Positions 3,370 to 28,938 of a stretch of DNA of 33,606 bases are shown here, one piece after another; position 1 is the first letter of the stretch, and each line of letters opens with the position of its first letter. The stretch comes from Nitrospinota bacterium (GTDB lineage: Bacteria; UBA8248). A model generated the notes under the pieces. That model was not told the DNA's origin and searched no databases. It saw only the letters and a program-made list of their open reading frames with translations. Position numbers and translations under genes: made by a program. The stretch spans positions 1-33,606 of the forward strand of contig JAPPHK010000131.1 in the NCBI GenBank assembly GCA_028820795.1, given 5' to 3'.

Positions 3370-3768
3370 ATGGGTAGTCTTCGACTCATCATTGGCTTGA
3401 TTCTGGCATTGGCGATATCGAGCTTCGGTGTAGTCAACATGAAGCCGGTGACCGTTGCCTATTATCAGGGCAGCATCAACTTGCCTCTATTTTATATACT
3501 CTTGGCCGTGTTTGCATGCGGGTTCTTGGTAGCGTGGCTTGGCGGGGCGTTCGATAGGCTGAAGTTTAGGAGCCAGATTGGAAAATTAAAACGCGAAGTA
3601 AAGATGTTGGAAAACAATCTGAATGTAGAGCAGGAGAAAAGCGGCAAGTTGCTAGCAATGGAAAATCCACCAACTGAAGAATCTTCCACTTCAAGTAACG
3701 AATCCGCTTCACAAACGGATTCCAAATCTCAGATGACCCTCTCCCCCCGGAAATCGAAGGTGGAGTAG
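3370..3768 (+). CDS. LapA-domain (DUF1049) inner-membrane protein
   Basis: This 132-residue protein has two membrane helices (about residues 4-22 and 40-60). A short loop containing NMKPVTVAYYQGSINLPL joins them, a characteristic LapA/YciS pattern. A coiled-coil-like stretch (about 65-95) and a Ser/Thr/Glu-rich tail follow. In E. coli the homologue LapA works with LapB, which feeds LpxC to FtsH for degradation. That link matters here because lpxC and ftsH are both in this window, but no LapB is visible, so a shared role is only inference. The ATG at 3370 follows GGTGGGG. mutS starts two bases after the stop codon. Confidence 0.75.
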   Translation: MGSLRLIIGLILALAISSFGVVNMKPVTVAYYQGSINLPLFYILLAVFACGFLVAWLGGAFDRLKFRSQIGKLKREVKMLENNLNVEQEKSGKLLAMENPPTEESSTSSNESASQTDSKSQMTLSPRKSKVE

Positions 3769-6585: not shown

Positions 6586-7191
6586 ATGTTGCCTAACACC
6601 CGGAAAACATTTGTTCTTAGAAAATTTGCCATAGCTATTTGTTTGTTTTTCGTTCTAGTAGTGCCAGCGCTTTCCGCAACGGATGACCAAGATGGAATCC
6701 GAATAAAAGATATTATTGTTATTAACAAGAATGGGCAGTTGCTCGTTTTTGGTTCTCTTTTAGGTGCATTTTCGCCAAAACTTTTGGAAGCTATTCATAG
6801 CGGTGTAACTACGAAGTTCATCTTTGACGTAAGTCTCATACGCTCTCGCAAGCTAATTTATGATTTGGAAGTTTCCTCTCGGCAATTACATCATCAAGTG
6901 AAATATAGCGCCTTGAAAAGAACATATATTTTTCATCTTACTGACGGTGCGAAAGAAATCGAGAGTAAAGTAACAAGAAGCCAAGGTGAAATGACAGACT
7001 GGATGCGCGAGTTGAATGGCGCACCCATTAGCTCAGGTAAGGTCTTGTCCCCCAATAGTCGATATTATGTCAAAATCAGGGCGCGGTTGAATCATGTGGA
7101 CTTTGTGTTCCCCTTTAATTATTTACTCGCTTTTTGGGGAAAGAAGTCTGATTGGAGCTATTCTCGGATGTTTAGTTCCGAAGGAATGTGA
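6586..7191 (+). CDS. DUF4390 family exported protein
   Basis: This 201-residue protein begins with a clear signal sequence: basic start, hydrophobic stretch at about residues 12-28, and an ALSA cleavage-like site. A beta-rich domain follows, with no catalytic motif that I recognise. The order and content match DUF4390 proteins, which are typically encoded directly upstream of an NtrY-like sensor kinase in Desulfobacterota-like genomes. Its role is not known to me. An extracytoplasmic partner or modulator of the neighbouring kinase is a reasonable inference. The ATG at 6586 follows GAGGGG, and the ntrY start lies three bases after the stop. Confidence 0.7.
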   Translation: MLPNTRKTFVLRKFAIAICLFFVLVVPALSATDDQDGIRIKDIIVINKNGQLLVFGSLLGAFSPKLLEAIHSGVTTKFIFDVSLIRSRKLIYDLEVSSRQLHHQVKYSALKRTYIFHLTDGAKEIESKVTRSQGEMTDWMRELNGAPISSGKVLSPNSRYYVKIRARLNHVDFVFPFNYLLAFWGKKSDWSYSRMFSSEGM

Positions 7192-7194
7192 ATT

Positions 7195-9459
7195 GTGAAT
7201 CAAAAGCAAATGAAAAATCAGGAAATCTCATCACGTCGACGAAGAACACTTTTGCGGTCCTTCATCGCTTTGATAATCATTGCGACTCTTTCGTTTACAG
7301 CTTGGATTTACTTCAAAGAGCTTGAGCCGGGAGTCCCTCTTCTGAACAATGTTGTCGTATTTGCACTTGTGAATCTGAGTATAATTCTGCTCATGGTGGT
7401 TATTCTCTTGGTAGCAAAGAACCTTGTGCGTCTTTACTACGAAGGGAGAACGGGCGCCGGTCGTTCACGCTTACAATTAAAGCTCGTTTTGGCTTTTGTC
7501 GGGTTTACACTCATCCCTGTAGTGGCTCTTTTTGTGGTGGCCAGCGGTTTGATTAACCAAAGTTTTAACGCCTTGTTTAACATGAATGTGGAGCGCGCGC
7601 TCAAGGGGTCGTTCGACGTGGCTCAAACGTATTATAACGAGGTGGAGCGGAACGCGCTATTCAGTGCAAGTCGACTTGCGCATATGTTGGAGAAGTCGCA
7701 TCCCGATGCATTGGAAAAGCCTGGAGCAATCGAAAAAATACTGAAGTCCGAGAGAAAGAGCTTAGGAGTTGATTTTATACAACTCTATAATAGAGAGCGA
7801 CAGGAGATCGTATCGGTCAGGCGTCCGGGGCTGGGGCGAGCTGCGTTCTTCTCACCTCTGGTGGGATACGTAGATCAAGTGATTGATGGGGAATCGCGCT
7901 CAAGTATTGAGAATTGGGAAAAAGGTGATGTTATCTATGGCGTGGCACCTCTGAAAATTCAGAATAAAGTGGTAGGATTTATCGTTGTTTCCAAATATGT
8001 GTCTGATAGGCTCGTGGAGAAAATCAGAGGCATATCGGATTCTTTCGTGAATTATAAAGAATTGGAACTCTCTAAGGATCCTATTAAAGCTAACTACATT
8101 ATCACCTTTTTAGTAGTTACCTTGCTCATTCTTTTTGCCGCCATATGGTTTGGTTTCTACCTCGCTCGCGGGATCACGGTTCCAATCGAAAAATTAGCGG
8201 ACGCTACAAGGGCGGTGTCTGAAGGTGATCTTGAACATCGCGTGGATGCGCAAGCAGATGGCGAAGTGGGAATTTTGGTCAATGCGTTTAATAGCATGAC
8301 GGAAGAATTGCTGGCTAGCAAGAAGAAAATTGAAGAGTCTTCTGAATTCCTACGTCGTTCCAACTTGGAAATCGACAGAAGACGCAGATATATGGAAGCG
8401 ATGCTGGAGAATATTGGTGCGGGTGTAATATCTATCAATCGCCGAGGGCGTGTTACTATCCTTAACAAAGCGGCTGGTGAGTTACTGAGCATTCAACCCC
8501 AGAATGCTGTGGGACGAATGTTTAGCGAAGTATTCGAGAGCGCGCACCTCGAACCTGTTCGTCAGTTAATGCGCTCGATGCGGGACCGAGAGCACCAAAG
8601 TGCTTCGGAACAAGTGGAAGTCATGATTGATGGTCGCGTATTGACGTTACGCGCGAGCTTGACTCTACTCAAAAGCGCGGATGGTGGCTGGCTCGGTGCA
8701 GTTATTGTGTTCGATGATATGACGGCATTGATACGGGCTCAAAAAGTGGCCGCATGGCAGGAAGTTGCTCGTGGCATCGCACATGAAATCAAAAATCCAC
8801 TTACGCCGATACAACTATCCGCTCAGAGAATGAGAAGAAAATTTGAAAGTGAAGCCTATGATTTTGCAGAAGTATTTGAATCTTGCACCGATACCATTAT
8901 CAATCAGGTGACAAGCCTAATTGAAATGGTGAATGAATTCAGCCGTTTTGCGCGAATGCCAGAGCCGAGATTAAGGCTGTGTGGGTTTATTCCCCTGCTT
9001 GAGGATGTTGCGAATTTGTATCGTGACAGGAAAGGGAATGTGAAATTTACCATGCAAATCAATACCGGGGGTGCAGTTGTCATGGCGGACCCCGAACAAT
9101 TACAACGCGTTTTCATCAATCTGCTCGAAAACGCTTTCGAATCCCACGATGTCGAGGGTGCGATAGATTTGCAAGCATGGAGTGATATGGACAGAAACTT
9201 GATAGTTGTTGAAGTTGCTGATCAGGGCCAAGGTATATCGGAAGATATAAAAGGACATATATTCTCGCCTTACTTTTCTACCAAAGACCGAGGTTCTGGT
9301 TTAGGTTTGGCCATTTGTCACCGCATTGTGGCAGATCATAATGGAACGATAAGCGTGCGGGATAATCATCCAGCGGGTTCCGTTTTCCGTGTGACATTGC
9401 CGCTTGCGCATGCTTTAGACATCACATCTGAAAGGAAAAGGACAGCTTCCATTGGATAA
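7195..9459 (+). CDS. NtrY-like membrane sensor histidine kinase
   Basis: This is a 754-residue sensor kinase. Membrane helices lie near residues 20-38, 50-75 and 95-120, followed by an extracytoplasmic segment and another helix near 300-320. A HAMP domain (about 320-375), a PAS domain (about 395-510) and the kinase core follow. The phosphoacceptor is H530 in GIAHEIKNPLTPIQ. The ATPase part has the N box (NLLENAFES), G1 (DQGQGI) and G2 (GSGLGLAI) motifs. It is expected to phosphorylate the receiver domain encoded next. GTG at 7195 is three bases after the DUF4390 stop, and the 3' end overlaps the next gene by 8 bases, so the three genes are probably cotranscribed and coupled. Ligand unknown; NtrY-type kinases respond to nitrogen, redox or envelope cues in different bacteria. 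Confidence 0.88.
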   Translation: MNQKQMKNQEISSRRRRTLLRSFIALIIIATLSFTAWIYFKELEPGVPLLNNVVVFALVNLSIILLMVVILLVAKNLVRLYYEGRTGAGRSRLQLKLVLAFVGFTLIPVVALFVVASGLINQSFNALFNMNVERALKGSFDVAQTYYNEVERNALFSASRLAHMLEKSHPDALEKPGAIEKILKSERKSLGVDFIQLYNRERQEIVSVRRPGLGRAAFFSPLVGYVDQVIDGESRSSIENWEKGDVIYGVAPLKIQNKVVGFIVVSKYVSDRLVEKIRGISDSFVNYKELELSKDPIKANYIITFLVVTLLILFAAIWFGFYLARGITVPIEKLADATRAVSEGDLEHRVDAQADGEVGILVNAFNSMTEELLASKKKIEESSEFLRRSNLEIDRRRRYMEAMLENIGAGVISINRRGRVTILNKAAGELLSIQPQNAVGRMFSEVFESAHLEPVRQLMRSMRDREHQSASEQVEVMIDGRVLTLRASLTLLKSADGGWLGAVIVFDDMTALIRAQKVAAWQEVARGIAHEIKNPLTPIQLSAQRMRRKFESEAYDFAEVFESCTDTIINQVTSLIEMVNEFSRFARMPEPRLRLCGFIPLLEDVANLYRDRKGNVKFTMQINTGGAVVMADPEQLQRVFINLLENAFESHDVEGAIDLQAWSDMDRNLIVVEVADQGQGISEDIKGHIFSPYFSTKDRGSGLGLAICHRIVADHNGTISVRDNHPAGSVFRVTLPLAHALDITSERKRTASIG

Positions 9460-11584
9460 GGGACATGTGCTCATCGTAGATGATGAACGTGAAATACTCA
9501 CGAGCTTGGAAGATGTTTTGCACGATGAAGGGTATCGTGTTGAACGTGCAGAGACCGGTGAAACGGCTCTTCAATTGATTCGAACCGAAACGCCGGATGT
9601 GGTTTTAGTCGATGTGTGGATGCCGGGCATTGATGGAATCAAAACTTTACAAGCGGTAAAAGAGTCAAACGCAGATATCGAAGTCGTTGTGATGTCGGGT
9701 CACGGCAACATTGAGACTGCTGTAGCCGCAACCAAGTTGGGTGCATTTAATTTTATTGAAAAACCCCTTTCCATCGATGCGGTTTTGCGTATAGTCGATT
9801 CTGCTATTCAAGCGCGAAGGGCCAAAGAACTCAAATCGAATGATGTTGCAGATGTGATGTTTGACGGTACGAGCAAAATTTCTCAAAGGGTTAGAAAGAC
9901 CATACAAAAAGCGGCGAAAAATACTGTTCCCTTGTTGATTGCAGGTGAAAGAGGAACTGGCAAGCGTTTTATTGCAAGGGTGATTCACAAAAACGGCATC
10001 AAAAAAGATGAAGGCTTTAGGCCTGTTCATTGCCGCTCGTTGTTTCCAATGAAAGGGATAAATGAGTGGAAAAATACACTGGAGCGGCTATTGCCCAATA
10101 CATTTCAAGGGACTGTGTATCTTGATGGTTTGGAGCAGTTGCACATGGCGGAACGTGAAAAATTTCTCGTTCGATTTTTTGAGCACATGAAAGACTCAAT
10201 GCGTTTGATGGTATCCGTTGATCACATGGGGACTCTGAAAGATAAGGCCTATGTGCGAGCATTGTCCGCGAAAATAAGTGCGGATGTAATACATTTGCCT
10301 CCTTTGCGCGAACGCAAAGAAGACATTCTACCGTTAGCCAACAGAATTTTGAATGAATGCATTGGAGATGGTAGATATGCAAAGGAATTTTCAGAAGATG
10401 TCATTACAATTCTGGAAGATTATGATTGGCCAGGTAATATTGCTGAACTGAAAGGCGCGGTGACAAAAGCAGCTTATACATCGCAAGGATTGGAGATTCG
10501 CATCGGCCACCTGCCGCACGTGATACGTGAAGCTTCAGATTTCGAGACGGACACCTCAATAAACGATATCCCTTCTAATTTTAATGTAGCCAGAACCCAG
10601 TGGGAGAGACAGTACCTTTCCTTCCATTTGGAAGAGCACGATTGGAAAATTAACAAAACCGCTCAAGCTGTAGGTATGACAGAACCTGCATTGAAACGCA
10701 AAATTAAAGCATACAATATTCAGCCCGTATTACCGGCGTTGAAGACACCAAGGGAAACAAATCAAAGGAGCATTTCGAAAAGTGTCGTGTTGTATGGCAG
10801 AGGGCTTCATTCAGGTCTGAAGACCGGGTTGATCATCGAACCCTTGCCGCCTGGGAGCGGGATCCAGTTCGGTAATCTGACAAGCCCCAATACTGTGAGG
10901 GCAAATGTCGATTTCGTGGATAGCACCAATCATGCGACGAACTTGCGCAATGGAACTGTGACGGCTCGAACGATAGAACATCTTATGAGCGCGCTACATG
11001 CATATAAGATAAGCAATATACTGATCAAAATGAGTGAGGAAGTACCTGTCATGGATGGGTCGGCAGTGGAATTTTGTCGCTTGCTTGAAGAAGCTGGTAT
11101 AGAAGATCAGAGGGAAAAACGTCAGGATTTATTGGTTGATAAAGTTTACGAGGTAGGGGAACCGAGTGACGAGAAGGGTTATATACGTATAGAGCCTGCG
11201 GATTCTTTTTCAGTTTCATACCTCATCGATTATCCAGAGCCGATTGGAAAGCAATCCTACCTCTATGAACACAAGAATGCATTGAGTTTTCAAGAGGAAA
11301 TCGCACCGGCTCGTACGTTTGGTTTTGTTTCTGAACTGGAGTCGCTTGAGAAAATGGGCTTGGCCGAGGGTGGTCGTTGGGATAACGTGATTCTTGTAGA
11401 CAAAGCGCGTGTCGTGAATACACAATTACGATTTCCCAACGAATTCGTTCGCCATAAAATTCTTGACGTTATAGGTGATCTTTATTTAACCGGTCGTCCT
11501 ATCCGAGGAAGAGTGACCGCTGAGAGAAGTGGTCATCGGCATAATGTAGCTTTGGTTAAGCAGCTGATGGAAGTCCATGTCTAA
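9452..11584 (+). CDS. lpxC: Fusion protein: NtrX-like response regulator joined to LpxC deacetylase
   Basis: One uninterrupted 710-codon frame encodes two proteins that are normally separate. Residues 1-120 are a receiver domain with acidic pocket D10/D11, phosphoacceptor D54 in VDVWMPG, and K104. Residues about 135-370 resemble the AAA+ domain of NtrC-family activators: Walker A GERGTGKR ends near K171, and PPLRERKEDI is kept. The GAFTGA loop is absent, Walker B reads VYLDGL instead of LDE, and sensor II reads PGNIAEL instead of NVREL. Residues about 390-430 are a Fis-like helix-turn-helix (NKTAQAVGMTEPALKRKIK). From about 437 to the end is LpxC, the zinc enzyme that deacetylates UDP-acyl-GlcNAc in lipid A synthesis; E509, zinc ligands H510, H668 and D672, and H695 in SGHRHN are all present. 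It starts at TTG 9452, overlapping ntrY by 8 bases. There is no C-terminal tail like the FtsH degron of E. coli LpxC. Confidence 0.93.
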   Translation: MDKGHVLIVDDEREILTSLEDVLHDEGYRVERAETGETALQLIRTETPDVVLVDVWMPGIDGIKTLQAVKESNADIEVVVMSGHGNIETAVAATKLGAFNFIEKPLSIDAVLRIVDSAIQARRAKELKSNDVADVMFDGTSKISQRVRKTIQKAAKNTVPLLIAGERGTGKRFIARVIHKNGIKKDEGFRPVHCRSLFPMKGINEWKNTLERLLPNTFQGTVYLDGLEQLHMAEREKFLVRFFEHMKDSMRLMVSVDHMGTLKDKAYVRALSAKISADVIHLPPLRERKEDILPLANRILNECIGDGRYAKEFSEDVITILEDYDWPGNIAELKGAVTKAAYTSQGLEIRIGHLPHVIREASDFETDTSINDIPSNFNVARTQWERQYLSFHLEEHDWKINKTAQAVGMTEPALKRKIKAYNIQPVLPALKTPRETNQRSISKSVVLYGRGLHSGLKTGLIIEPLPPGSGIQFGNLTSPNTVRANVDFVDSTNHATNLRNGTVTARTIEHLMSALHAYKISNILIKMSEEVPVMDGSAVEFCRLLEEAGIEDQREKRQDLLVDKVYEVGEPSDEKGYIRIEPADSFSVSYLIDYPEPIGKQSYLYEHKNALSFQEEIAPARTFGFVSELESLEKMGLAEGGRWDNVILVDKARVVNTQLRFPNEFVRHKILDVIGDLYLTGRPIRGRVTAERSGHRHNVALVKQLMEVHV

Positions 11585-20517: not shown

Positions 20518-22437
20518 TTGAACCAATTTTATAAGAATTTGGCGCTTTGGCTGATTATCGGGTTGATCATGGTAGGTTTGTTTCAGGCCTTCAATAGCCC
20601 GCGCTCTACCGATAGAACGGTTGTCTACAGCGATTTCCTCCAAGCAGTAGCAGATGGGCAGGTGAGCGAAGTGGTTGTTCAGGGAGACAATATTCGGGGC
20701 CGGTACCTCAGCGGCCGATCCTTTCATACCCACGCTCCTAAAGACCCGAAATTGATTGACACTCTCCGAGCCAAAGGCGTTCGTATCACAGCGCAACCGG
20801 TAGAACAAAACTCCTGGTATATGAACATGTTGCTGAGTTGGCTGCCTATGCTGGTGATGTTAGGCGTTTGGATTTTCTTCATGCGACAGATGCAAATGGG
20901 TGGTTCGAAAGCTCTCTCTTTTGGAAAAAGCAAAGCGCGGATGATGCCCGAATCTGCGAAGAAAAAGATTACGTTCGCTGATGTAGCCGGTATTGAGGAA
21001 GCGAAGGAAGAGCTGGAAGAACTCGTTGATTTTCTCCGTGACCCACAAAAGTTCACACGCTTGGGTGCTCGTATTCCCAAGGGAGTACTGATGGTCGGTC
21101 CTCCCGGCACGGGCAAGACCCTTCTGGCGCGTGCTATAGCGGGCGAAGCGGATGTACCGTTTTTCTCGATAAGCGGGTCGAGTTTTGTGGAGATGTTTGT
21201 CGGAGTCGGGGCGTCTAGAGTTCGGGATTTGTTCGAACAGGGAAAATCGAATGCGCCTTGCATAATTTTCATTGATGAGATTGATGCAGTCGGGCGACAT
21301 AGGGGCGCAGGCCTCGGTGGTGGTCATGATGAGCGTGAACAGACGCTCAATCAACTACTTGTTGAGATGGATGGTTTTGAATCGAATGATGGAGTAATTT
21401 TAATGGCGGCGACTAATCGGCCGGACGTGTTGGACCCAGCTCTTTTAAGACCAGGCCGCTTTGATCGCCAGATAGTCGTTTCCTTGCCTGATATTAAAGG
21501 GCGCTTGGCCATTTTGAAAGTGCATGCCGCCAAGGTGCCGCTTAATGAATCCGTCGATTTAAATCTCATAGCACGCGGAACTCCGAGATTTGCGGGTGCA
21601 GATCTGGCGAATCTTTTAAACGAATCCGCACTCCTTGCGGCGCGACGGGGAAAACAGTCCGTTGAAAATGAAGACCTGATGGAAGCGAAGGATAAAGTCT
21701 TGATGGGCAAGGAACGACGTAGCATGGCGCTCAGCGAAAAGGAAAAGAGGAACACAGCCTACCACGAAGCGGGTCACGCCCTTGTTGCATTACTGATACC
21801 CGGGACGGATCCCGTTGAGAAGGTAACGATCATCCCACGAGGATTTTCGCTGGGGAGCACATGGTCTTCGCCTCTCGAGGATCGTTATAGCAACGATAAG
21901 ACTTTCTTGACGAACCAACTTGCTTGCCTCATGGGTGGACGTGCGGCTGAGATGTTGGTCTTTGAAGAATTAACGACAGGAGCGAAGGCCGATATCCAGA
22001 CATCGACTGACTTGGCGAGAAGTATGGTTTGTGAATGGGGTATGAGCGAGAAACTCGGTCCATTGGCATATGGGAAAAAACATGAGCAAATCTTTTTAGG
22101 CCGCGAAATTTCTCAGCACAGGGATTATAGTGACCAAGTGGCACTGGAAATTGATAACGAAGTAAAAAATATGGTCTCGTCGAGTTTTGAGAGAGCGTAT
22201 AAGTTGCTGGAAGAAAATCGCGATAAGCTCGATTTACTCGCCAATGCGTTGCTCGAATATGAAACCATTGATTTGAAAGATATTGAGTCATTGATGGAGA
22301 CCGGACAAATTTCTAGGAATCGCAAACAAAAAGACGAGGTTGATGCAGGAAAGGCTTCACTCTCTCCTCAACCGGAGGAAAAACCTCGTGAGGACCCAAA
22401 GACGTCGCCGACTGACTTAGCGCCTGGCCAAGCCTAG
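20518..22437 (+). CDS. ftsH: ATP-dependent membrane zinc protease FtsH
   Basis: FtsH extracts and degrades membrane and regulatory proteins; in E. coli it controls LpxC levels. The 639-residue protein has two N-terminal membrane helices (about 8-24 and 103-122) around a small periplasmic domain. The AAA+ module has Walker A GPPGTGKT (194-201), Walker [11 protein letters not shown] and the second region of homology [20 protein letters not shown]. The protease has HEAGH (H416, E417, H420) and the third metal ligand in TGAKADIQ. The pore motif F-V-G reads [17 protein letters not shown] at 20518 follows GAAGGAAAG. The protein has a charged, proline-rich tail. Its usual downstream neighbours folP, cdaA and glmM are absent. 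Confidence 0.98.
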
Positions 22438-25282: not shown

Positions 25283-25472
25283 GATATTTCTTCTTTACAA
25301 AGAAAGGAAAGGGTGGCACTCTTACAGGGCATTGTTTTTACTTGTTTTCTTTGATGCAGCGGACGTAACCGGTACGAGAAAATAAATTTCACGGTTCTGG
25401 AGGGGTGAGTTTTTTGTCGTAGATATGACATGTGCTGTCGTTGAATACCGCCTGTGTTTCAGAAGGTTTGCG
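25283..25472 (+). other. Gap between tsaE and lptC, no clear gene
   Basis: A 29-codon frame starts at ATG 25279, overlapping the tsaE stop as ATGA, and ends at TAA 25368. It has no recognisable content and may be chance. TTCTTT/AAAGAA forms a short hairpin near 25289-25303. The region turns AT-rich before lptC. I see no convincing promoter, terminator or RNA gene. Confidence 0.3.
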
Positions 25473-26084
25473 ATGCTTTTCCGTAAGATGCTGAGAACGG
25501 TGTTGCTGGGCTTTCTGCTCGTGATGGGCGGGACTATTGCCTATTTCCTCTTGGGTTCTTCAAATCATCAACTCAATTTGGGAGAAATTTCGCTCACAGA
25601 CCCGGATGTGGATCTTAAAATAGAAAATATGCATGTAGTACAAAACACAAATGGCGTCAGGGAATGGGAGTTGTGGGCTGATTCCGCGAAGGTGTACCGT
25701 GAAAAAGGTTTGACACTTCTAAAGAACCTGAGGCTTCGTGTTTATCCGAAAGAAGGTGAGTCGGCATATGTAACTGCTAAAGAAGGAACTATGCAGAATG
25801 AAAGTCGTAATATTAGAATCAACGGCAATGTGACTATCTTGGCGTCAAATGGCGTTTCAATGAAAACAGATTCATTGTATTTTCGTTCAAAAGAAAAACG
25901 TATTGACTCGGATTCGCAGGTTTTGATGGAAGGGGCTCGGTTTCGTCTTATCGGCACCGGTCTTCAGGGGCAAACCGATCTGGGAAATTACAAACTGCAG
26001 GAGAAAGTGAGCGCTACCATATACGGTGCGAGTGGATATTCCTTCAAGGAGGAGAGAGAAAAGAAGCTGATTCGCGCTAACTGA
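25473..26084 (+). CDS. lptC: LptC-like LPS export protein
   Basis: LptC is the single-pass inner-membrane protein that receives LPS from LptB2FG and hands it to LptA. The 203-residue protein has one N-terminal membrane helix (about 9-28). A beta-jellyroll LptC domain follows, with REWELWADSAKVYREKG, VTAKEGTMQNESRNIRINGN and SLYFRSKEKRIDSDSQV typical of the fold. ATG 25473 follows AGAAGG at six bases, so I prefer it to the in-frame ATG at 25425, which lacks a good ribosome-binding site. It precedes lptA and lptB in the classical order. kdsC and kdsD, often upstream in related genomes, are absent. Confidence 0.88.
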   Translation: MLFRKMLRTVLLGFLLVMGGTIAYFLLGSSNHQLNLGEISLTDPDVDLKIENMHVVQNTNGVREWELWADSAKVYREKGLTLLKNLRLRVYPKEGESAYVTAKEGTMQNESRNIRINGNVTILASNGVSMKTDSLYFRSKEKRIDSDSQVLMEGARFRLIGTGLQGQTDLGNYKLQEKVSATIYGASGYSFKEEREKKLIRAN

Positions 26085-26119
26085 AGGGGCATACGGCCAA
26101 TCCCAAATGGAGGGCTGTT

Positions 26120-26713
26120 TTGAAACTGTATAACTTCCGCCTGAAGCGCCTTACATTCATTGGCTTGGGAATATACTTTGGTTTTTTTGTGTGGAGTGGC
26201 ACTTGCTTATCCGCACAGGAAAAAAACAAGACAAGTCACTTAAACCGTAAGGCACAGATCCACATTATCTCCGATAAAATGGAAGTGAACAGTCGGAAGA
26301 AACTCATCGTGTTTATTGGGAATGTGGAAGCGAATCAGGGGAATATGAGGTTAAAGGCGAATCGCCTCGAAATATATACGTTGGAGCCTAAACCATTCGG
26401 CTCGAAGCGTAAGCCAACGCCCAAGGACAGGGGAGGGGAGATTGATAGAATCGTGGCGACTGGAAACGTAGAGATGGATCAAGCAAAGAGAAGGTTCGCC
26501 ACTGCTGCCCGGCTTGAATATCGAGAATCGACTGGTATTGCAATTTTGACGGGAAACCCTCGTGTATGGGAAGGCAAGAATCGGTTAGTCGGCGCTAAAA
26601 TAGAGTTGAATTTGAAAGAAGACAGAACGATCGTGCATAGCTCGCGTCGCCAAAGAGTCAGCGTTACTCTTTTTCCTACCAGTGAGACCCCCCGCCGTAA
26701 AAAATCAAATTAG
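26120..26713 (+). CDS. lptA: LptA-like periplasmic LPS transport protein
   Basis: LptA polymerises into the periplasmic bridge that carries LPS to the outer membrane. The 197-residue protein has a signal sequence (hydrophobic core at about residues 12-30, then CLSAQ) and an OstA/LptA domain. The domain contains [40 protein letters not shown] and [23 protein letters not shown] at 26120 follows GGAGGG. The stop lies four bases before the chosen lptB start. The insertion rich in Lys, Pro and Gly at about 93-110 matches the variable loop of LptA. Confidence 0.9.
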
Positions 26714-26717
26714 TCTC

Positions 26718-27482
26718 ATGTCTTCGTTGACCGGTGGTAATGCTGTCCGACGAGAAGGTGCTATTTCTGTTCACGTCACTAAGTTAACAAAAAGCTATTC
26801 AGACCGAACGGTTGTATCCGGAGTGGAACTGAAAGTGCACCCCGGCGAAATCGTCGGCTTGCTTGGACCAAACGGGGCCGGAAAGACGACGATATTTTAT
26901 ATGATTGTCGGACTTTTAGATCCAGATGCGGGAAAAATTTTTTTGAATGGCAGTGAAATCACCAGTCTGCCCATGTATATACGTGCCAAGAAGGGAATCA
27001 GCTACTTACCTCAAGAGGCGTCTGTGTTCCGTCGTCTTTCTGTAAGGCGAAACATCATGGCGGTGCTTGAATTGGTTTTGTCCGATCCAGAGCAACGTGA
27101 GAGGCGATTAAACGAGATTTTAGAGGAATTGGATATCCAGCACATTCAATTCGTAAAGGGATATGCCCTCTCCGGCGGAGAGCGTAGACGTGTAGAAATT
27201 GCTCGGGCATTGGCCACAAATCCCACTTTTATGCTTCTAGATGAGCCTTTCGCCGGCATTGACCCCATCGTGGTGCACGATATTCAGGAGATAGTGATGA
27301 GCTTAAAGGCTCGTGGAATTGGAGTCATCATTACGGATCATAACGTGCGTGAGGCCCTTCAGATATCCGACCGGGTATACATAATCAATGAGGGACGTAT
27401 ACTGGAATCCGGTACTCCAGAAGAAATTGCTGTAAGTGATAAAGCTCGGAATATTTATCTGGGCGAAAAATTTCGTCTTTGA
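26718..27482 (+). CDS. lptB: LPS export ABC transporter ATP-binding protein LptB
   Basis: LptB is the cytoplasmic ATPase of the LptB2FG exporter. From ATG 26718 the protein has 254 residues: Walker A GPNGAGKT (50-57), the ABC signature LSGGERRR, Walker [14 protein letters not shown], and the LptB-specific start of the C-terminal region [13 protein letters not shown] 26718 has only a weak ribosome-binding site and may rely on coupling to lptA; the frame is open back to GTG 26682. Either choice leaves a 15 to 27 residue N-terminal extension over typical LptB. LptF and LptG are not in the window. rpoN follows after 16 bases, a classical arrangement. Confidence 0.96.
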
Positions 27483-27498
27483 GGTAAGGGGAATCCAC

Positions 27499-28938
27499 GT
27501 GGCTTTGCAGCATAAGATGGCAATGAGGTCGGAGCAGCGTCTCGTCATGACTGCTATGTTGCGTCAGGCGATAGGTCTTTTGCCTCTGAACCGCATGGAA
27601 ATGCAGCAAGCTGTTCAGCAGGAAATGTTGAATAATCCCTTATTGGAAGAAGTTCAGGATGAAGAAAAAGAAGTGGTCGAAGATGTGATGCCGGAAATGA
27701 GAGACGATATTCCCGAGTATCAATATGATGAAAGAGGCGAGGTGGAGATCGATTGGGAAAACATCGTGCAGGACAATTATGATGATTTGTCGCCTAAAAC
27801 TCTGACTGATGATTTCCCTTCTTATGAGCAAACTGTGGCGCGGCCCGATACTTTGCAAGAGCAATTGGAAAGGCAATTGAGTCTTTCAGTGGTTGCTGAG
27901 CCGATAAGAAGAGTTGCTGAACAAATTATTTGGAATATAAATGAAGAAGGTTATCTTGTGGCTGACGTGAAGGAATTATCGGCCGAAATGGGGCTGGGGT
28001 CTCTTGAGGCGGATAAGGCATTGAATTTGGTGCAAGGATTCACTCCACCTGGCATTGCCGCAAGAACACTTCAAGAATGCCTTGTTATGCAATTGAAAAA
28101 TAATGAATTATCTATGAATGGAAATAGCCACGTTTTGGATTTAGCGCGAGATTTGCTGCTTAATGGCATTGAACAGATAAGCGAACCTAAATATGAGAAA
28201 CTCGCTAAGGCCAACAACGTCGATGTGGATGATGTCGTTCAGGCAATCGGTATCATTCGCAGTCTCGATCCTAAACCGGGATTACGTTTTTCCGAGCAAA
28301 GAGTGGAGTTAGTGATTCCTGATGTAAGTGTCTCCAAACGAGGGGATGATTATGAGGTGACGCTTAATGACGATGGCTTGCCACTCCTGCGCGTGAGTTC
28401 ACTGTATGCGGCAATGGCGGCGAACAAAGTTGGAACCTCTCCCGATACCCGGAAATATTTAGAAGAAAAATTAAGGGCGGCTGCCTGGTTCGTCAAAAGC
28501 ATAGAGCAAAGAAAACTGACGATTCTGAAAGTTTGCCGAAGCATTGTACTTTTCCAAAAAGATTTCCTGGAACATGGCGTGAGTCGCTTAAAGCCTCTTG
28601 TTTTAAAGGATGTGGCGCTAGATATCGCGATGCACGAATCAACCGTGAGTCGTGTTACGACAGGAAAGTACATGGACACGCCACAGGGTGTATTAAGCTT
28701 CAAGTATTTTTTCCCCAGCGGATTGGAATCTAGTGCGGGGGAGAGTACATCTTCGGTAGCTGTAAAGGAAACCATTAAGAAAATAGTGGAACAGGAAAAC
28801 CCGCAGAAGCCGCTCACCGACCAACAAATTGCAGAAAAGCTCAAGCAGGAGAACGTGGCGATAGCGAGGCGGACGGTGACAAAATACCGAAAGGAACTCC
28901 GCATCTCTCCCACCAGAAAAAGGCGTAAAATACGCTAA
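27499..28938 (+). CDS. rpoN: RNA polymerase sigma-54 factor RpoN
   Basis: Sigma-54 directs RNA polymerase to -24/-12 promoters and needs AAA+ activators. From GTG 27499 (AAGGGG eight bases upstream) the protein has 480 residues. Region I is rich in Gln and Leu (MLRQAIGLLPLNRMEMQQAV, then MLNNPLLEE), followed by an acidic region II, the core-binding domain and the C-terminal DNA-binding domain. The RpoN box is ARRTVTKYRK (456-465). The longer frame back to 27436 overlaps lptB and is unlikely. The usual next genes hpf and rapZ are missing. The only activator-like protein in the window, the NtrX-LpxC fusion, lacks the motif that contacts this sigma factor. Confidence 0.97.
   Translation: MALQHKMAMRSEQRLVMTAMLRQAIGLLPLNRMEMQQAVQQEMLNNPLLEEVQDEEKEVVEDVMPEMRDDIPEYQYDERGEVEIDWENIVQDNYDDLSPKTLTDDFPSYEQTVARPDTLQEQLERQLSLSVVAEPIRRVAEQIIWNINEEGYLVADVKELSAEMGLGSLEADKALNLVQGFTPPGIAARTLQECLVMQLKNNELSMNGNSHVLDLARDLLLNGIEQISEPKYEKLAKANNVDVDDVVQAIGIIRSLDPKPGLRFSEQRVELVIPDVSVSKRGDDYEVTLNDDGLPLLRVSSLYAAMAANKVGTSPDTRKYLEEKLRAAAWFVKSIEQRKLTILKVCRSIVLFQKDFLEHGVSRLKPLVLKDVALDIAMHESTVSRVTTGKYMDTPQGVLSFKYFFPSGLESSAGESTSSVAVKETIKKIVEQENPQKPLTDQQIAEKLKQENVAIARRTVTKYRKELRISPTRKRRKIR

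Follow-up and report, generated by a model that had tools for sequence, protein, structure and literature searches.

The contig JAPPHK010000131.1 of the Nitrospinota bacterium assembly GCA_028820795.1, analysed here over its full 33,606 nt (the window), encodes at 9452–11584 on the forward strand a response regulator-like protein that continues in the same frame into a complete LpxC, the flux-setting deacetylase of lipid A synthesis and a target of antibacterial drugs. Initially annotated as a single odd protein, it proved to be a member of a widespread family, with receiver (REC)–LpxC fusions in at least seven phylum-level groups, the window's own group included (phyla as the search tool counts them). 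We consider it probable that these proteins are response regulators with LpxC as their output, in which a receiver state set by the sensor kinase NtrY would alter the activity or lifetime of the enzyme. On balance, we also favour the broader reading that the family, with members in at least seven phylum-level groups, forms a two-component class in which NtrY acts on LpxC itself and lipopolysaccharide (LPS) would be tuned post-translationally by phosphorylation.

A receiver and a complete LpxC in one reading frame

The frame comprises 710 codons, starts with TTG and contains no internal stops. Pfam confirmed the one-polypeptide fusion that had been read from the DNA letters, finding in order a receiver (Response_reg, PF00072, 102.8 bits; residues 6–114, 9467–9793), an AAA+-like domain (residues 139–366, 9866–10549; Sigma54_activ_2 at 139–285 with 56.2 bits and AAA_lid_14 at 286–366 with 65.8 bits), a Fis-type helix-turn-helix (HTH; HTH_8, PF02954; residues 383–421, 10598–10714) that at 22.2 bits barely passes its cut-off of 22, and, beyond a variable linker (residues 426–436, 10727–10759), a complete LpxC domain (PF03331, 281.5 bits; residues 438–706, 10763–11569). 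The codon of the predicted phospho-acceptor Asp54 lies at 9611–9613, those of E509 and H510 at 10976–10981, the HKxxD stretch from H668 to D672 at 11453–11467, and H695 at 11534–11536. E509, H510, H668, D672 and H695 thus occupy the positions originally assigned to them; we take E509 and H695 to be catalytic and H510, H668 and D672 to be zinc ligands.

By its zinc and catalytic residues and its match to the LpxC equivalog model TIGR00325 (238.8 bits, above the cut-off of 187.25), the window protein is a predicted LpxC deacetylase, joined to a predicted phosphorylatable receiver with a D54 pocket. Against the NCBI equivalog model for NtrX (NF051870), it scored 239.8 bits, below the cut-off of 600. 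An LpxC-FabZ identity found no support, with 215.2 bits against NF009667 (cut-off 465) and no FabA-type domain found by Pfam. The fused gene is the sole LpxC found in the assembly, a metagenome-assembled genome (MAG) of 3.28 Mb that is 79% complete.

Recurrence of the fusion across phyla

Because at least seven phylum-level groups carry the fusion, it is no assembly artefact; its presence in many assemblies likewise ruled out a frameshift or a chimeric contig. Across the join itself (10650–10850), five related loci (L031–L035) align to residues 1–709 unbroken with 85–87% identity, and REC–LpxC fusions are also present in many genomes more distant than these. The four-domain form was found in L031–L036 and L038, from MAGs titled Nitrospinae/Nitrospinota, Tectomicrobia or 'bacterium', and a shorter form, whose receiver is attached to LpxC with no domain in between, in L039, L040 and L055. 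A plasmid-borne gene was also considered, and a tblastn search against plasmids returned, among the best 5000 records, no hit that spanned 80% of the query.

LpxC was present in 52 of 61 genomes surveyed and, in a wider survey, in 326 of 386, places being examined among the matches listed, plus those of 80 more of these 386 genomes. Here, frame length served as a proxy for fusion. As a long frame may arise by chance, length alone was not accepted as evidence, and domains were checked on fetched loci with our own hidden Markov models (HMMs) and with Pfam on four proteins; in the wider survey, frames of 430–500 aa were domain-checked only in part. Of the 77 genomes in the phylum of genome G022, 65 have LpxC. 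The frame is 460–797 aa long at 63 of these places; of the remaining two, one (L106) is truncated by its contig and one is a match starting at contig base 1. All four LpxCs in the phylum of G059 lie in frames of 731–755 aa, as do all 20 in that of G080 (24 genomes) in frames of 538–962 aa. The phylum of G025 has LpxC in 40 of 45 genomes (35 in frames of 412–496 aa, the remainder in 265–394 aa), and that of G048 consists of one genome, which is fused. Among 119 genomes sampled out of the larger phylum of G100, 117 have LpxC, and G100 and G604 carry REC–LpxC. Further fusions occur in G090, G065, G104, G247 and G112; the count of seven groups rests on the phyla listed before and the window's own group.

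Frames too short for a fusion in the phylum searches were contig-cut where fetched (L106, L121), and those of G433, G469, G496 and G502 stem from matches no more than 50 bases away from where a contig begins; the 394-aa frame of G486 was left out of this check. Not every long LpxC frame is a REC fusion: L146–L152, L159, L161, L163, L166, L167 and L169–L172 are LpxC-FabZ, as called by a FabZ HMM built from a single sequence (L146 confirmed by Pfam too), and L160 and L164 contain neither REC nor FabZ.

One branch of fused LpxCs with a variable middle

When 81 REC-fused LpxC domains were placed in a tree with 76 others, they grouped on one branch with a Shimodaira–Hasegawa-like approximate likelihood ratio test (SH-aLRT) support of 98 and a single label change; in a smaller tree (77 fused, 65 other) the support was 99. 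This suggests one old origin of the REC–LpxC fusion, the trees being quick ones without bootstrap and with the root not known. Five rows (L068, L164, L159, L029 and L160) were excluded from both for their long branches. Including long-branch rows left 76 fused rows together on a single branch (SH-aLRT 92), with 28 LpxC-FabZ rows outside it. No REC-less LpxC fell among the 81 rows of the fused branch, which were partly selected by frame length; as a control for this selection, 20 short-frame LpxCs of other groups and 11 REC-less rows were added, and all placed outside.

The divergent REC–LpxC of L145 (5404–6639; G461, a small genome) has both its receiver and its LpxC on long branches. In the inclusive tree its LpxC fell outside the fused branch, beside L068. 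Since the receiver, too, is set off from the others, L145 possibly arose by a fusion of its own. In a poorly resolved tree of 115 receivers, all other fused receivers grouped together, near those of ntrY-linked regulators.

While both ends are constant, the middle of the protein is not: the 81 fused proteins comprise 26 REC–AAA–HTH–LpxC, 15 REC–AAA–LpxC, one REC–HTH–LpxC and 39 REC–LpxC architectures. Absence of the HTH was called with our own HMM at a domain E-value of 0.01 in the main set and at 0.001 plus 20 bits in four added rows. In six REC–AAA–LpxC proteins, the gap between AAA and LpxC is only 19–25 residues, too few for an HTH. The sole REC–HTH–LpxC found (L103, 716–2257; G386) lacks AAA, and its HTH, at 20.8 bits, is just below the Pfam cut-off of 22. 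Long and short forms coexist within the window's family and within the phylum of G022, implying that AAA and HTH were lost more than once if the long form is ancestral; the simpler reading of these architectures is that the long form was first and was later trimmed of AAA and HTH.

Conserved ends and a degenerate AAA+ domain

Among 69 fused receivers, D11, D54, W56, S82 and K104 never vary, and 65 have D10 (the others Glu); in a wider set, D54 is present in 77 of 77 and S82 and K104 in 99%. The LpxC part is conserved as well, with E509, H510, T622, H668, K669, D672 and H695 each found in all 77 fused proteins. The AAA domain follows a different course. Walker A is present in all 38 fused AAA domains compared, the GAFTGA-type loop in none, the Walker B Asp-Glu in two, the arginine-finger position in three and the sensor II arginine in two, vs. 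29, 29, 29, 28 and 29 of 29 free NtrX/NtrC-type regulators. The window protein itself keeps Walker A and lacks the other four motifs. A working sigma-54 activator was ruled out by this loss, and the window AAA+ domain is best described as a predicted degenerate relic. The protein had initially been called NtrX-like; its domain order bears this out, whereas the AAA+ domain has decayed and the NtrX model cut-off is missed.

Across six sequences of the window's genus, the ratio of nonsynonymous to synonymous substitution rates (dN/dS, Nei–Gojobori) was 0.042 for REC and 0.040 for LpxC, indicating equally strong constraint on receiver and enzyme, 0.079 for the HTH, 0.169 for the more relaxed AAA and 0.437 for the HTH–LpxC linker. 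Thirteen LpxC sites are specific to the fused proteins (≥90% in 76 fused, ≤35% in 70 others), and ten of these lie within residues 444–542, the part of LpxC closest in sequence to the receiver; they may mark an interface, or merely shared descent.

NtrY, DUF4390 and gene order

Upstream of the fused gene, on the same strand, the window encodes a 754-aa NtrY-like membrane sensor histidine kinase (7195–9459; NtrY_N, HAMP, PAS, HisKA and HATPase by Pfam), the sole NtrY_N match in the assembly, and, preceding it, a DUF4390 gene (6586–7191, forward strand; Pfam). The overlap of kinase and fused gene described in the initial annotation is real and amounts to 8 bases.

Of 78 fused loci, 31 have NtrY immediately upstream, excluding an opposite-strand hit in L128. 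When 34 chosen genomes were searched for NtrY_N, 31 contained exactly one match (30 above the cut-off). From these, 20 of 23 ntrY loci unlinked to the fusion were fetched: in the stretch read, none of the 20 has a receiver gene on the kinase strand, 17 have DUF4390 upstream (five of them weak, at 18–36 bits) and 19 of the kinases show the H-box pattern. From this recurrent association, DUF4390 may be a partner of NtrY. In 15 genomes no protein reaches the cut-off of the NtrX model, which is itself reached in just one of 14 control genomes.

Where the genes are unfused, they can still be neighbours. Four Thermodesulfobacteriota loci (L042, L051, L053, L054) carry separate genes in the order lpxC–DUF4390–ntrY–ntrX, and unfused lpxC adjoins ntrY or DUF4390 in L213–L216 and L225 from the phylum of G100, an arrangement suggesting that enzyme and regulator sat together before their joining. 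Gene order and architectures suggest an evolutionary course that began with neighbouring genes, passed through a fused four-domain protein and led to a bare receiver-enzyme.

Linkers, tails and structural models

In REC–LpxC proteins the linker is variable and 30–64 residues long; the AlphaFold model of L055 predicts it (residues 130–169) to be disordered. At the other end, the tail after the LpxC domain has a median of 6 residues in fused proteins (3–22, n = 77), compared with 18 in single LpxCs (5–45, n = 25, a list that includes the three contig-cut fused pieces L082, L106 and L121), leaving little room for an E. coli-like FtsH degron.

The LpxC domain of the window model superimposes on solved LpxC structures with a Z score of 36.7 and a root-mean-square deviation (rmsd) of 2.1 over 271 residues. 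Residues 5–421 match Brucella NtrX 5m7n, and the N-terminal part matches Brucella NtrX 5m7p with Z 23.8 and an rmsd of 17.5 over 397 residues, i.e. domain by domain and not as a single rigid body.

Proposed mechanism and alternatives

We propose that an envelope or redox signal would be sensed by the membrane kinase NtrY, which DUF4390 may serve, and that NtrY would phosphorylate Asp54 of the receiver. The receiver state would then alter how active or how long-lived the attached LpxC is, by a physical route for which docking, dimerisation, membrane recruitment and turnover are candidates. Lipid A flux would thereby be set by the signal with the transcription step bypassed, a transcription factor having presumably turned into an enzyme switch whose DNA-facing parts are being eroded in several lineages.

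Direct control of the enzyme by the kinase, raised as a possibility at the outset, is favoured by the comparative evidence because the fused proteins form one branch with constant ends and a variable middle, Asp54 and the LpxC residues are kept, and the AAA+ domain appears to be a relic. It is further favoured because REC and LpxC are alike constrained, a single ntrY co-occurs, and the unfused genes are neighbours elsewhere. Lastly, according to the available portions of published reports considered below, NtrYX affects lpxC in Rhodobacter, DVU2934 targets lpxC and MurA activates LpxC, which would fit the same control.

Several observations weigh against such control. Outside the window's family, the fusion was found in only four of 35 LpxC genomes (G022, G025, G048, G059), as called by BLAST and by HMM on fetched loci (four unfetched loci have frames of 276–306 aa), and most LpxCs in the phylum of G100 stand alone, unfused. 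With a variable, predicted disordered linker, rigid allosteric coupling is not obvious, and AlphaFold leaves the domain arrangement unfixed (predicted template modelling scores, pTM, of 0.62 and 0.46 in two models). Three genomes with REC–LpxC (G112, G247, G461) gave no NtrY_N match; ntrY lies apart from the fusion in 23 of the 31 genomes with one match, and the 15 genomes searched with the NtrX model each hold 9 to 59 matches below its cut-off, so that NtrY might use another regulator. Finally, the HTH is under clear purifying selection in the window's genus.

This last point speaks for a bifunctional protein, an alternative that we consider unlikely: the HTH would still bind DNA, as a repressor or sigma-54-independent regulator, with LpxC constitutively active and the fusion keeping both in step, perhaps by autoregulation. 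Retention of all four domains in 26 of 81 fused proteins fits this idea, but an HTH was not detected in 54 of the 81, 39 of which are REC–LpxC, and the six REC–AAA–LpxC proteins with short gaps have no room for one. The tethering to DNA that had been suggested for the window protein finds no support as a general mechanism and is possible in the window's genus, where the HTH dN/dS is 0.079; an HTH may alternatively serve dimerisation.

More doubtful still is that the receiver acts by localisation, docking LpxC on the membrane kinase NtrY or a partner of NtrY, with phosphorylation releasing or holding the enzyme. Variable and probably flexible linkers would suit such docking, as would the retention, where the fusion is unlinked, of a kinase with the H-box pattern (19 of 20) and no neighbouring receiver gene. 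The three REC–LpxC genomes without an NtrY match argue against this putative binding. This alternative would differ from control of LpxC by the receiver state in detail only.

It is very improbable that the fusion is passive, REC being a historical leftover or folding tag whose signalling state is irrelevant to LpxC. Linker length and sequence do vary freely, but Asp54 is kept in 77 of 77 proteins and the remaining pocket residues nearly so, the constraint on REC equals that on LpxC, and no row on the fused branch lacks REC, though AAA and HTH are often missing. We give least credence to separate products of the fused frame, with LpxC freed by internal initiation or cleavage: the window has in-frame ATG/TTG/GTG codons by the join (residues 409, 414, 430, 446 and 447), but Shine-Dalgarno-like starts are not enriched there in the family (8 of 2128 codons vs. 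245 of 40521 elsewhere) and their positions are scattered.

Further genes in the window

Downstream (3′) of the fused gene lie purM-like and purN-like genes, lolA and an rseP-like M50 protease gene. The same contig encodes an FtsH protease at 20518–22437, 9 kb from the fusion. LptC- and LptA-type LPS transport genes, an ABC ATPase gene (lptB-like by position) and then the sigma-54 gene rpoN occupy 25425–28938; sigma-54 is thus encoded in the window, yet the fused regulator has lost the sigma-54-contacting loop. Upstream of the kinase operon, a small protein with a LapA (lipopolysaccharide assembly protein A) domain is encoded at 3370–3768.

Comparison with known systems

The initial remark that no NtrX–LpxC protein had been described agrees with the open-access full-text literature, and full-text searching of open-access papers listed none whose title or abstract start describes receiver–LpxC fusions; subscription papers and domain databases lay outside that search, and a description in the former or an unremarked entry in the latter is possible. 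A 2025 review describes, in its available portion, LpxC control for Proteobacteria via proteolysis, a partner protein or transcription (PMC12444477), and the words fused, fusion and bifunctional are absent from it.

With NtrX of the NtrYX system, the window protein shares the order of receiver, AAA+ and Fis-type HTH, the receiver pocket, and a DUF4390 gene and NtrY-type kinase gene directly upstream; it differs in missing the NtrX cut-off, in its lost AAA motifs and in carrying LpxC at its C-terminus. It resembles LpxC (UDP-3-O-acyl-GlcNAc deacetylase) in its complete domain with catalytic and zinc residues, whereas the fused form has an N-terminal receiver and a short C-terminal tail. LpxC-FabZ, too, places LpxC within a fusion protein, but its FabZ, not found in the window protein, is C-terminal and a metabolic enzyme.

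Links between two-component systems and lpxC have precedents. In Rhodobacter without NtrYX, lpxC mRNA is 8.8-fold up and LPS about doubled, indicating that NtrYX restrains lpxC and affects the envelope, and, according to the accessible part of the report, the region upstream of lpxC yielded no NtrX site (PMC7240162). As an economical reading of this analogy, the fused family may put the NtrYX–lpxC link into one molecule; a covalent receiver–LpxC family makes the NtrYX–LPS link testable with one purified protein. For the Desulfovibrio response regulator DVU2934, lpxC is given as the sole target in the excerpt available, and in S. fumaroxidans the operon orthologous to that of DVU2934 is immediately preceded by lpxC (PMC3333781). 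From that excerpt, DVU2934 is similarly a response regulator dedicated to lpxC, but a transcription factor acting on the gene, with regulator and enzyme as separate proteins. Post-translational control of LpxC by a protein partner is likewise reported in the available review text: MurA activates Pseudomonas LpxC, and E. coli LpxC is degraded by LapB with FtsH via a C-terminal degron (PMC12444477). As described there, these partners act in trans, while in the fused family a phospho-receiver would act in cis.

The window protein shares an N-terminal receiver joined to a catalytic domain with response regulators that have enzyme outputs, such as CheB, PleD and REC-PP2C. Such regulators are thus a known kind, and to our knowledge their outputs are signalling enzymes; an output enzyme that is biosynthetic and normally essential is, as far as we know, new. 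If the proposed control is correct, a sensor kinase would steer the LPS-committing enzyme directly, not through the lpxC gene, and in receiver–LpxC a response regulator would have as its output a biosynthetic enzyme that is normally essential.

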